Source: Dryococelus australis (Eukaryota > Arthropoda > Insecta > Phasmatodea > Phasmatidae). From it: DNA of 64,000 nt. Positions 44,823 through 61,424 of the stretch are shown here, piece after piece. Both the position numbers and the translations under genes were made by a program. The DNA is taken from NCBI GenBank assembly GCA_029891345.1, contig CM057000.1:137748663-137812662 (forward strand). Reading direction: 5' to 3'. The stretch's first letter is position 1; every line of letters begins with the position of its first letter. The notes beneath the pieces are model-generated. The model ran no database searches, was not told where the DNA came from, and was given only the letters and a program-made list of their open reading frames with translations.

Positions 44823-45827
44823 CACTCTAAATCTGAATCAGTGAGAATTCCACTGTTTCAATCACTCAAACGTATTTGACTGATACAACAGCCACTTCAG
44901 TTAATTTAACTGATGAATCAGTGAAAAATGACATATTTCCTTCACTGATTGATACCGTGACATTTCCCGCTGATTCGTCAGTCATTTTTCCCACTGTTTT
45001 TTCAGTGGTTTATTTTTTGACTGATGGACCAGTGAAACATCTGAGCAACTTGCTCCGTCTTTAATTTTTTTTTTTTTAACTGATGTATCAGTGAAACTGC
45101 GTGTAAAAATGGTTGTCGAACATCGTTTAAAAATGGCCGCTAAACAGAGTGCATCAAATGAAGTAACAACGAATAGACCAATCAAACCAATACAAAATAC
45201 TCTATTTTACGAGGTAATATGAGCACACAGCCTTTCGTCCCGTTTTTACGTCTTTCATTTCGATTCCATGTAATCGTCACAGCGCTCTGTTTGAAGGTTT
45301 AAACTGAGTTTGGTGTTATACTATTCGGTTTAACAATCGTAACTATACTAACCAAACTAAAAACAAGAAGTATGAGCACTAAACATCAAACTACACGATT
45401 TCGCAGTGATAATAGAAAACATATATTTTCCTCTGCAAATTGTATCTTGACGTGGTTGCTCAGATTGCAAGGCAACAGCCTAGAGTCGAAGGATGTGTGA
45501 ATTCAATCCCAGCCACGTGCGAAAATTTTTTACTTGATAAAATTACGATAAATTCCACAATATAAATAGTTAACTATCGTAAATATATTTGTTTCACGTA
45601 ATTATTTGCCCATATTCAACAAAAGCAATATTCAATTCGCCAATGCAGTCAGCCGTCACTTATTCAATCGGTGAAATGGTTTCACGTAACTAATTCAATC
45701 AGTGAAGTTTTTTTCACTTAATCAATCAATTGTTTTCCACTGATTCTAAGTAGAGCCATTTTCACTCATTAAAGTAGCTGAATTTCATTGCGAATCAGTG
45801 GTTTTCTACTGATTCGAATTTAGAGTG
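44823..45827 (+). mobile_element. ~1-kb TIR element with tRNA-like core (copy 1)
   Basis: The ends are CACTCTAAATCTGAATCAGT and, inverted, CACTCTAAATTCGAATCAGT. Both 200-bp flanks are packed with ACTGATNNATCAGT-like words in both orientations, plausible transposase-binding sites by analogy with other subterminal repeats. The middle holds AATGGCCGCTAAACAG, TTTTACGTCTTTCATTTCG and CACAGCGCTCTGTTTGAAG, shared with the 60489 copy, and then a 72-bp tRNA-like segment (45449-45520). No open frame of note. Copies at 47839 and 60489 show TA targets. Here the flanking dinucleotides no longer match. Confidence 0.8.
45449..45520 (+). other. tRNA-like segment inside the TIR element
   Basis: GACGTGGTTGCTCAGATTGC ... 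GAATTCAATCCCAGCCACGTGC. The acceptor-like ends GACGTGG and CCACGTG can form six of seven pairs. A TGGTTGCTCAG-type A box and a GAATTCAATCC-type B box are correctly spaced. Length is 72 bp. The D and anticodon stems are imperfect, so a functional tRNA is unlikely. An internal RNA polymerase III promoter is possible. Confidence 0.55.
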
Positions 45828-47838: not shown

Positions 47839-48936
47839 CACTCTAAATCGGAATAAGTTATTTCTTACTGATTGTCAGTTGAAACTGCTCCATCCGGAAT
47901 CAGTAGAATAAGAAAACTACTTATCTCTTCAGTTAAATGAAATCCATTAATACAAACAGTAGAAAATAGTTATTTATAGTCGATTAATAAAAAGCACAAG
48001 GATTAAAAAACCACGCATTACAGTTTCAAGTAAATTAAGTACAATTATTTTATAGCAAAACAGAATTATTACACGTAGAAGTAAATTTTGGAAGTGGTTG
48101 GTATCGAACTGCCGCCCCAGAATGCAACACATTCTCTTGTATACTTTTGGCTGACGTTCTACCAACTCTGCTGCTTTGCCACTAAGATAAACAGTCTCGT
48201 ATTTGCGTAGTAACATAGACTTACAATGGCGAACGGCTGTATGTTTCGTAATGTGAAAGTACTTCATGTTGTCGAAATGTACACATATTATGCGCACGTA
48301 GGTACCTGCATGTCTTTGTAAGGCTCGAAAGTCATTCCAAGTTAAGTTTAGTTCAGATTGTGTGCTTTAAAATAGAAATATAGTGGTTTTAACTGCGTTG
48401 TCGGTGTTTTCTATGGATCTGCAATTTTACAATGAAACGAGATCTTACAGAATGAAACTGTTATTTTGAAGAGACAGATTGACTAGTAATATCTGTGTTT
48501 GTCGTCTCCTCATTATTTGATCTGTTAACTTGCAGACCACAAAATATTTGTTGGTGTAAATTCACGTTTCTTATTGAATCACCACGCTATCAAGTCAGTA
48601 AAATTACCACTGATCTATCTGTCACAAAAATTACACTTTGAATGTGTAAGGTCTCGTTGCATTGTAAAATGGAGGATACTACTGGACCTCGATAACCTCG
48701 TACATTGGAACCACTCTTTTAACGAACAGAATCTGAACTAAACTAAAGATAGATTGACTTTCAAACTTTGCAAAGACGTGTACTTGCATTAACCAACTAT
48801 ATATAACTAGTTTTCTACAGCTTTAATTAGTAGATTTATTTTAACTGATGGATTAGTGATATTTTTTTCTACAGATTCCAGATGGAGCAGTTTCAACTGG
48901 CAATCAGTAAAAAATAACTGATTCCGATTTAGAGTG
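47839..48936 (-). mobile_element. ~1-kb TIR element with tRNA-like core (copy 2)
   Basis: Ends CACTCTAAATCGGAATAAGT and, inverted, CACTCTAAATCGGAATCAGT, flanked by TA at 47837-47838 and 48937-48938. Subterminal GGAATCAGT and ATCAGT words occur on both sides. The tRNA-like part lies near the left end on the minus strand, so this copy is reversed relative to 44823. Its core is the most diverged of the three. Confidence 0.85.
48092..48184 (-). other. tRNA-like segment inside the TIR element
   Basis: On the minus strand TAGTGGCAAAGCAGCAGAGT, then TGGTAGAACGTCAGCC (A-box type), and GGCAGTTCGATACCAACCAC with a near-perfect B box GTTCGATACC. A five-base AGTGG/CCACT pairing can close the ends. It is about 93 bp, longer than a tRNA, so an expanded or fused tRNA-derived unit. 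Confidence 0.55.
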
Positions 48937-49156
48937 TATGCACGTTGTGTATTCCTCCGCCTTATGTAAACTTAACATTGCTATAGTCCTCATCACTCTA
49001 TTCACACGTTGGTCAAGTGTAACTGCGTAATTATAAGGAAAGTAAATATTTTATAAATCTACTCACTTTTACACTTCGCTTCATTAAAAAAAAAAGACAT
49101 CCAATTAAATAATTTAAGTTATCACAAATGCTTACCTAACCCAGCCAACACAACCT

Positions 49157-49476
49157 GTCGGCAAATTGTCGGCCAGATACCTGTACAGTCGGCAAATTGT
49201 CGGCAAATTGTCGGCCAGATACCTGTACTGTCGGCAAATTGTCAGCCAGATACCTGTACTGTCGGCAAATTGTCGGCAAATTGTCGGCCAGATACCTGTA
49301 CTGTCGGCAAATTGTCGGCCAGATACCTGTACTGTCAGCAAATTGTCGGCCAGATACCTGTACTGTCAGCAAATTGTCGGCCAGATACCTGTACTGTCGG
49401 CAAAGTGTCGGCAAATTGTCGGCCAGATACCTGTACTGTCAGCAAATTGTCGGCCAGATACCTCTACTGTCGGCAA
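49157..49476. repeat. 31-bp minisatellite, nine units
   Basis: Unit GTCGGCCAGATACCTGTACT plus GTCGGCAAATT. AGATACCT occurs nine times. Three units carry an extra 11-bp GTCGGCAAATT or near copy, giving 42-bp spacing. No stop falls in most frames, so open frames of 67-111 codons appear on both strands. They are repeat artefacts. It lies at the broken end of a GTTCAC element. Confidence 0.95.
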
Positions 49477-50157
49477 CAGTCGTTTCAATAACAGAAGATA
49501 GCCATCTGACAACGGCGTGACGTCCTTTTTGAGACAGTATGTTTGCCGTTAGAAAAAAGACAACGGCCTACTGTATTTTTTTTTTGGATAGCAGATCGAT
49601 ATCACCTAAATTATGTCGCCTTGATAACACACAGCCAACATATCGCCAATAGCTAAAATAATATTCTGACCCGATTCTGATATAGCATCTTTGTTTTTTC
49701 GGTAAACTGGCCATCATCTTATTTATTCTCGCCTGCTAGCGTTTTCGAGACATGGCTCTTTATCACAATAAAGATACAAATATGATGTATTTTATGCCGA
49801 CAAACATTTTGGAAGTGTTTTTTTAAAAGTCAAGATGTTAGTTAGCTGTTAATGGCACGATGTCTTTTTTTTTTAGACCTTGTGTTAACTGTTGACATGT
49901 TTTTTTTTCCTCATCTGTGTCACGTGGTAACCCATTTCATTTTTTACATCAATTTTTCTTTCATTTGTATAACCATACGACAGATATATTAAAAACTAAC
50001 AAAAACTATTTTGTTTGGAAGCCTTTGAAGAACCGAAGGAACAGTTTTTAAATAATCAGTGTTTTACAATTATTTGTTACATTGCTATGGAATTTATACA
50101 TTCACGTATAACAATTTGTGTCATGATAAATTTGAAATTACTCAACAGTATCAGCAA
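49477..50157. other. Anonymous AT-rich DNA
   Basis: No gene recognised. Near 49918 a TGTCACGTGGTAACCCAT word resembles one arm of the miniature element at 39420. Confidence 0.45.
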
Positions 50158-50235
50158 CTTACCCCGTGGTTTAATGGTTAGCATGCTGGCCTGTCAACTA
50201 AAGGATCTTAGGTTTGAATCCTGCACTCCGCAAGA
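50158..50235 (+). mobile_element. tRNA-like sequence (Asp-like anticodon loop)
   Basis: CTTACCCCGTGGTTTAATGG, TTAGCATGCTGGCCTGTCAA, then B box GGTTTGAATCC. The anticodon-loop position reads CTGTCAA (GTC). The acceptor stem does not pair cleanly, so a tRNA pseudogene or SINE head is likelier than a functional gene. Confidence 0.5.
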
Positions 50236-50378
50236 AAAAGATTTTCATACCATATAATGCGTTGAGGAGTAAATGAAATGAATATGTGTTAAGAGGAAAT
50301 AACAGTTACAAAGGTTTTTAATCGAAAATTTAATGTTTTTTGTATGGTTAAACAGCTGCAGGTCTGGCATCGTAAAGA

Positions 50379-50625
50379 CACCCAGCCATCACTGGCACGG
50401 CATCTTGCAATCATCCAGCCGCCACGGGCCCGGCGTATTGCTGCCATCCAGCCGTCGCAGGCCTGGCGTCTTGCCGCCATCCAGCCGCCGCAGACCCGGC
50501 GTCTTGCCGCCATCCAGCCGCCGCAGGCCCTGCGTCTTGCCGCCATCCAGCAGCCGCATGGCCGGCATTTTACCGCCATCCAACCGCCGCAGGCCCGGCG
50601 TCTTGCCGCCATCCATCGGGCCGCT
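50379..50625. repeat. 33-bp GC-rich minisatellite, about seven units
   Basis: Consensus GCCATCCAGCCGCCGCAGGC plus CCGGCGTCTTGCC, with the outer units degenerate. The period is 11 codons and stop codons are absent in several frames on both strands. Open frames of 75-136 codons therefore appear, with peptide repeats such as MDGGKTPGLRRL or MAARRRACGGW. I do not regard them as genes: no promoter, domain or codon asymmetry favours one strand. Confidence 0.93.
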
Positions 50626-50740
50626 TCTGACATAAGACAGCGGGCCGGCATCATCTGGCCGGAGTTTGTCGGCTATCTTTTACCGACCCGATTCCGGCCC
50701 GTACTTTTCGTGTATGTTGGGAACACTTTTTATTCCATGT

Positions 50741-60488: not shown

Positions 60489-61424
60489 CATTCGAAATCG
60501 GAATTAGTGAAAATTTCACAGTTGCAACCAGTCAAAAGTACTTGACTGATTCAACAGTCACTTCAGTGAATTTATCTGATGAATCAGCGGAAAACTGCCA
60601 GATTTACTTAACTTATTGATTGGTGGCATTTTCCACTGATTCATCGGTCATTTTTGTCACCGTTTACTCAGTGGTTTATTATTGACTGACGGATCAGTTA
60701 AACAGCGTCTAAAAATGACCGTCAAACAACGTTTAAAAATGGCCGCTGAACACCTTGTATCAAGTGAAATTACAACGAATAAACTATTAAAACCAATAAA
60801 AATAGTTTAAAAAAGCGGGTTACGTCTTTCAAAACGCCATTTTACGAGGTAACATGAACATTCAGCCTTTCGTTCCGGTTTTACGTCTTTCATTTCGTTT
60901 TCATGTAATCATCACAGCGCTCTGTTTGAAGATTCAAACTGCATATAATGCGATGACGAGAGTGCACTTATATATACTATTCGTTTTAACAATCCTAACG
61001 GTACAAATTAAACCAAAAGACGAAAAATAAGAGCATACAGTTTGAATCTTAACGTTTTCGATGTGAAACTATAAGACATATATTTTCCTGTCGTTACTTT
61101 AACTTGGCGCGGTAGCGCAGGTGTTAAGACACCGGCCTAAAATCGAATTACGGTAAATTGCGCGATATAAATAGTAAACTATTGTAAATATGTTTATTTC
61201 GGGTAATTATTTGGCTAAATTCAATAAAAACAATATTTAAATCTCCACTGCAGTCGGCTGTCATTTATTCAATCAGTGAAATAATTGCACGTCATTAATT
61301 AAATCAGTGAAATTTTTTCGCCGAAACAATTAGTGGGTTTCCTCTAATTCTAAGTGGAGCAATTTTCACTGATTCCAGTAGTTTAATCTCACTACGAATC
61401 AGTGGTTTCCATCTAACTCGAGGA
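60489..61424 (+). mobile_element. ~1-kb TIR element with tRNA-like core (copy 3)
   Basis: Left end CATTCGAAATCGGAATTAGT. The right end is degenerate (CGAATCAGTGGTTTCCATCT ... CGAGGA). TA flanks at 60487-60488 and 61425-61426. It follows the 44823 copy along its whole length, with AATGGCCGCTGAACACC, TTTTACGTCTTTCATTTCG, CACAGCGCTCTGTTTGAAG and GTGAAATAATTGCACGT. The tRNA-like part at 61105-61146 keeps the A-box and anticodon-arm half but has lost the T-arm. Confidence 0.82.
61105..61146 (+). other. Partial tRNA-like segment inside the TIR element
   Basis: TGGCGCGGTAGCGCAGGTGT followed by TAAGACACCGGCCTAAAATC. A strong A-box match (GGTAGCGCAGGTG) and a GTTAAGACACC... anticodon-arm region, then direct passage into ATTACGGTAAATT. 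Compared with 45449-45520 the B-box half is deleted. Confidence 0.5.

Follow-up and report, generated by a model that had tools for sequence, protein, structure and literature searches.

What is a tRNA-like sequence doing in the core of a cut-and-paste DNA transposon? The question arises from a 64,000-nucleotide stretch of the Dryococelus australis genome (contig CM057000.1; hereafter the window), in which the initial annotation described three copies of one terminal inverted repeat (TIR) transposon family, here called W1, W2 and W3, with common ends, subterminal words and, where preserved, TA targets, and with a tRNA-like segment at the corresponding place in each. The features of these elements, and of two others with tRNA-like cores (E4 and E5), are given in Table 1. 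The genome searched comprises 3.4 Gb. For W1, genome-wide searches gave 7790 first-look candidates, 40 of which were scored, and two samples were assembled, one by score (39 W1-type loci) and one by the tRNA-like segment (36 loci); for W2, 20 of 40 scored loci were used. A further sample, based on the TIR only, consists of the first 20 listed of the 3438 TIR matches, every one of them at the same end of contig C1.

Table 1. Elements, tRNA-like segments and insertion points. Positions refer to the window unless a locus (L) or the W1 consensus is indicated.
Feature	Position	Strand	Remarks
W1, non-autonomous TIR element	44823..45827	+	1005 bp
W1 left TIR end, CACTCTAAATC	44823..44833	+	
W1 right TIR end	45817..45827	-	
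W1 tRNA-like segment	45449..45520	+	consensus 624-696, 73 positions
W1 box A, degenerate TTGCTCAGATTG (family consensus TAGCTCAGATGG)	45456..45467	+	insertion hotspot position in other copies
W1 box B, AATTCAATCCC (family consensus AGTTCAATCCC)	45500..45510	+	
T-run 3' of W1 segment	45526..45531	+	Pol III terminator-like (putative function)
W2, second non-autonomous TIR family, related ends, unrelated core	47839..48936	+	TA at both sides
W2 tRNA-like segment	48092..48184	-	
Box A of W2 segment	48162..48173	-	
Box B of W2 segment	48100..48110	-	
E4, multi-copy, probable TIR element	49140..50721	+	short imperfect CCCA ends by reading
E4 tandem arrays near both ends	49155-49476, 50379-50615		
E4 tRNA-like segment	50157..50232	+	box words with one mismatch each: A, 50167-50178; B, 50211-50221
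W3, diverged W1-family member	60489..61424	+	degraded right end, may reach ~61431
W3 tRNA-like segment, 3' part deleted	61105..61146	+	by reading
E5, TIR-like by reading	L052:215-1035 (about)		CAC...TTAAAAA ends; TTTCCGTA-type subterminal words
Insertions in score-selected W1 copies	L037 839-847; L039 683-705; L040 637-639; L042 638 and 886-891; L045 638		W1 consensus positions
Insertions in TIR-sample W1 copies	L120, L121 ~633-635; L123 641; L125 642; L127 634		W1 consensus positions; L120, L121 by reading

The CACTCTAAATC-type inverted ends are abundant in the genome, a 22-base TIR pattern having 1710 + 1728 exact matches against 0 for a reversed control, and by reading the subterminal regions are rich in ACTGAT/ATCAGT. 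The common ends and words of the initial annotation are therefore real, the latter as far as reading goes, and its single family is retained for two of the three copies. W3 aligns with W1 at 67% over q1-995 and, judged by their sequences, the two are members of a single TIR family with a tRNA-derived core segment. W2 is, by the same kind of comparison, a separate family: its consensus has terminal and subterminal words in common with that of W1, the cores give no match, and its tRNA-like segment is unlike that of W1 in sequence, length and strand. We therefore reject one family for all three window copies and, with it, the correspondence in place of the W2 segment. TIRs at both ends in many copies and a target duplication of fixed length, as expected of non-autonomous TIR transposons, were both found. 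Among the 35 W1 copies for which both ends could be placed, 20 have a 2-bp duplication (10 TA, 8 CA, 2 TG), as do 15 of 20 W2 copies (9 TA, 1 CA, 2 TG, 2 AA, 1 TT); among the window copies, W2 alone has TA flanks at both ends, W1 having tg/cg. Since CA, TG, AA and TT occur besides TA, the target is TA-preferring and not strictly TA; the non-TA duplications could derive from TA by decay only through identical changes on the two sides. CACTA/EnSpm elements have CACT ends, subterminal repeats and duplications of 2-3 bp, all of which we find here, and Tc1/mariner MITEs prefer TA. W1 resembles the former in its ends and subterminal repeats and the latter in its TA preference, whereas the strict TA duplication of Tc1/mariner is lacking in both W1 and W2. 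We use ‘CACTA-like’ as a description of W1, not as a classification, its superfamily being unproven.

The tRNA-like character of the segment is carried by its boxes. In the W1 consensus, TAGCTCAGATGG and AGTTCAATCCC differ at 0 and 1 positions from the consensuses for boxes A and B, a pair as good in 0 of 1000 Markov-1 shuffles, and they stand at tRNA-like spacing, as in a tRNA-derived SINE; the segment is followed by CTTTTTTACTTTTTT. The minus strand of the W2 consensus contains TAGCAGAGTTGG and GGTTCGATACC with 0 and 0 mismatches, and a mismatch sum of at most 1 arose in 1 of 1000 shuffles. A scan of the window at this stringency found the W2 segment and missed that of W1; the window copies are more degenerate than the consensuses. 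The predicted cloverleaf fold of the segment is weak at best. ARAGORN at default settings found 0 tRNAs, and the Rfam tRNA model, the covariance check proposed at the outset, aligned over its full length with the W1 segment of L065, among the best, at 14.2 bits (E 1.2; gathering score 29) and had no match in the W2 and E4 segments tried. An intact or functional tRNA gene is rejected for the W1 segment on both results. A tRNA-Leu call made on it by relaxed ARAGORN was discounted because other parts of the element were also called tRNA at that setting. A tRNA-like segment in each of the three copies is thus upheld at the level of box pairs in the W1 and W2 consensuses, W3 having lost half of its segment, and not at the level of the fold. 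No SINE body, A-rich or repeat tail, or target duplications belonging to the segment were seen in reading the W1 consensus around it.

Within the W1/W3 family, the segment is inherited together with the element. Of its 73 positions, at least 60 are kept in 32 of the 39 score-selected copies and at least 50 in 36, the remaining copies keeping 47 (L046), 36 (L022) and 18 (L047); this set favours intact copies because it was chosen by whole-element match. The TIR-only sample (n=20) contains 13 W1-type and 7 W2-type loci. The segment is uninterrupted in six of the 13 (L122, L126, L130, L132, L133 and L134), retains its 5' part up to foreign sequence that starts inside it in five (L120, L121, L123, L125 and L127), and is absent from two (L124, which breaks at 250, and L128, which lacks 102-932); none of the 13 has a clean empty site. 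Among the 40 best genome matches of the W1 segment consensus, four fell in copies already sampled and the other 36 all lay in W1-type sequence, with element matches extending to both ends in 27 of these 36 loci and not in nine, and no standalone relative appeared. A separate SINE insertion for each W1 copy is rejected by the fixed position and by these W1-type top matches. The argument of the initial annotation from shared position against three independent SINE hits accordingly holds for W1 and W3, and not for W2, and its idea of an ancestral capture is supported for W1/W3 by the same two observations. No empty-site relative showing the moment of capture was found among the W1 copies examined.

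In the seven W2-type loci of the TIR sample, the W2 segment is whole or nearly whole in four (L131, L135, L136 and L138) and only partly matched in three (L129, L137 and L139), and in each of the 40 scored E4 copies, the window copy included, the matched stretch covers the E4 segment. Compared with its own opposite strand, the W2 core gives matches at 66-77%, and L138 is a longer W2 form with a second, partial and inverted match to the tRNA-like segment in its other arm. W2 elements are also found within the other families: one W1 copy contains a W2 element within its tRNA-like segment (L114:130-205), so that a DNA transposon occupies the same segment, and another is apparently inserted in an E5 copy (L111), with E5 matches on both sides.

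The initial annotation also suggested, as one possibility, that the segment is kept for transcription or targeting and proposed as a check that boxes A and B be conserved above the surrounding core. No such special conservation was found over the 39 score-selected copies. The mean match to the consensus is 0.861 in the segment versus 0.922 outside, the 60 bp upstream being equally variable (0.836) and the 60 bp downstream reaching 0.928, and the 12-mers of box A and box B lie at the 17th and 16th percentile of conservation in the element, an order unchanged when CpG sites are dropped. Since conservation of the boxes does not exceed that of the core, we find no support for selection for Pol III use. 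Within the segment, the two boxes (0.896) nominally exceed the rest (0.845), over 23 columns only; they are also better kept than the 60 bp upstream, and this speaks against the segment as a pure passenger. Together with the T-run after the segment and the occurrence of tRNA-like segments in several cores without detected homology (W1, W2, E4 and, by reading, E5 in L052), this difference would fit a tRNA-like core retained since binding of Pol III or TFIIIC helps the transposon, be it by transcription, nuclear position or chromatin opening. We hold this explanation to be improbable in view of the low rank of the boxes within the element, the weak or absent tRNA fold and the W2 consensus, which by reading has no four-T run directly after its segment.

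The W1 segment turned out, unexpectedly, to be a hotspot for precisely placed retroelement insertions, which the initial annotation overlooked. Eleven insertions longer than 100 bp were counted in W1-type copies, six in the 39 score-selected loci and five in the TIR sample. Nine of them start in the 73-bp segment (binomial p 2.5e-9, for 72/1001) and eight at consensus 631-642, within 12 bp of box A (p 7e-14), these probabilities being subject to a test and a 12-bp window chosen post hoc and to assumed independence. The count treats L120 and L121 as insertions by inference, the sequence examined ending before the target resumes, and leaves out L124 as undecided (9 of 12 would lie in the segment if it were inserted elsewhere) as well as the 36 segment-selected loci, because their segments were chosen intact. 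The inserts are SINE-A with poly-A in L042, L045 and L125 and, by reading, SINE-A variants in L120, L121 and L127; L040 contains a 3' end with poly-A, L123 a different tRNA-headed repeat and L039 an unidentified insert. Junctions vary by a few bases, and about 22 bp of the target are lost in L045 and none evidently in L042; owing to these differences, the insertions were taken as separate events. In L120, a long tandem array of SINE-A head units (~33 bp) starts inside the W1 tRNA-like segment. The tRNA-like core of E5 in L052 is interrupted by SINE-A as well. The W1 segment seems to be a moving landing site, not a protected gene.

The same preference can be read from the side of the retroelement. 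Genome-wide, TAGCTC lies 0-12 bases upstream of 70 of 458 exact SINE-A 5' ends, compared with 3 of 458 for a displaced control at 30-42 bases upstream (odds ratio 27, p 1e-18), and the spacers peak at 6-7 bases (37 of 70), that is, right after TAGCTCAGNNGG, with none at 0 or at 10-12. In these cases SINE-A, a tRNA-headed SINE, is inserted at a constant place in tRNA-like sequence, as expected of a tRNA-targeted retroelement. In 20 high-ranking SINE-A 5' flanks, the exact 8-base box A word occurred near the junction in four and at displaced positions in one and none; with one mismatch allowed, a hand count gave 12 near the junction versus three and six displaced. The preference of SINE-A for the box A word is real but partial. 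TAGCGC was found 0-12 bases upstream of 6 of the 458 ends and the W2 box A word TAGCAGAG near none, the latter with a slightly different pattern from that of the TAGCTC count, so the role of landing pad is not general to all tRNA-like cores. The W2 box A was rejected as a pad on its 0 SINE-A matches. Twelve of the 70 filled sites, picked for varied box words (TAGCTC plus SINE-A pattern), were read. Five appear related to W1, as judged by blast for L160, L161 (weakly) and L171 (5' side) and by reading for L169 and L170; L162-L165 resemble one another (repeat TLS3), as do L167 and L168 (a further repeat, TLS4), and L166 was assigned to none of these groups. Neither TLS3 nor TLS4 could be followed to its ends. 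By reading, none of the 12 short stretches appeared to be a working tRNA gene. A few of the 70 sites resemble SINE-A inside SINE-A, by the spacer TAGCTCAGGGG. At L144, SINE-A is inserted after a stretch that may be 5S rRNA-like.

These sites also bear on whether the interruptions at box A are insertions at all. SINE-A has a box A of its own, TAGCTCAG, and L123 is readable as a switch between two tRNA heads, so that recombination or gene conversion between tRNA-like heads might have produced the interruptions of W1-type copies in place of targeted retroposition. We consider this very improbable: in L042, L045 and L125 the SINE spans from its 5' end to the poly-A and the target resumes after it, an A-run of at least 6 follows the SINE in nine of the 12 further sites (within the scripted window), and a switch by pairing of the two box A words would put the junction farther downstream than it is.

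For W1 and W3, we thus favour as the probable history an ancestral capture, spread by DNA transposition and use of the passenger segment as a retroelement pad. The family would be a non-autonomous cut-and-paste one, mobilised in trans by a putative transposase, whose ancestor may have acquired a tRNA gene or a tRNA-derived SINE head with its T-run. DNA transposition would then have multiplied the segment as a passenger, in the fixed position observed today. Retroelements favouring the word TAGCTCAGNNGG, by which the segment still resembles a tRNA 5' half, would insert there, at or just after box A, where the insertion points and poly-A ends are found; target-primed reverse transcription is the presumed route, probably primed at this site, with an endonuclease that the inserting retroelements may have in common. 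The transposon would in this way spread large numbers of landing pads. Descent of W1 and W2 from one ancestor with a tRNA core, the tRNA part alone being kept while the other core diverged or was replaced, could draw on the TIR and subterminal words that they share and on a segment that in both is situated ~250-305 bp away from one end and oriented towards it. It is the least probable explanation of all, as the segments of W1 and W2 are unlike in sequence and in length, the cores give no match and the W1 segment is more variable than the core, the reverse of what such descent requires.

The capture and landing-pad reading of W1 and W3 has partial parallels in known systems. MER6/MER6A is a Tc1/mariner-derived MITE carrying part of V-SINE (PMC6887750); as we propose for W1, a SINE-derived stretch was captured by a TIR element and then multiplied with it. 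The part of the SINE matched by MER6 comprises body and tail but not the tRNA head, whereas W1 has a tRNA-like head, no recognised SINE body and a retroelement hotspot. Non-LTR retrotransposons that target tRNA genes include Dictyostelium TRE5/TRE3, NeSL-1_TV, LIN15_SM and LIN25_SM (PMC5911963, PMC4640811). Like SINE-A, they are retroelements directed to tRNA sequences; the TREs settle outside the gene at a distance of tens of bases, whereas SINE-A enters the tRNA-like sequence itself, at box A or immediately after it. Unlike the tRNA-gene-targeting elements, SINE-A has targets that, among those read, are mostly repeats and a preference that is partial. Dada elements are DNA transposons that target snRNA and tRNA genes with 6-7 bp duplications (PMC3706591). 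Like W1, they are DNA transposons linked with tRNA sequence, but with tRNA genes as the insertion target and, in the U6 and U1 families, no terminal inverted repeats; W1 instead carries the tRNA-like piece inside and has 2-bp duplications. No report of a tRNA-like transposon core as a retroelement target was found in our searches of the open-access literature.

A broader proposal, which we regard as doubtful, is that tRNA-like cores were acquired separately by several unrelated families of DNA transposons and serve as a mobile safe haven for tRNA-seeking retroelements, the two kinds of element co-evolving. If true, such cores would give retroelements far more insertion sites than real tRNA genes do. 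Site-specific retroelements are seen as exploiting host genes present in many copies, and a DNA transposon that copies their target would change the arithmetic of this life style. Such a transposon would also provide a natural, replicated record of retroelement cut sites. For annotation, it is a warning that tRNA-like matches in genomes of this kind can be transposon cores and not genes.
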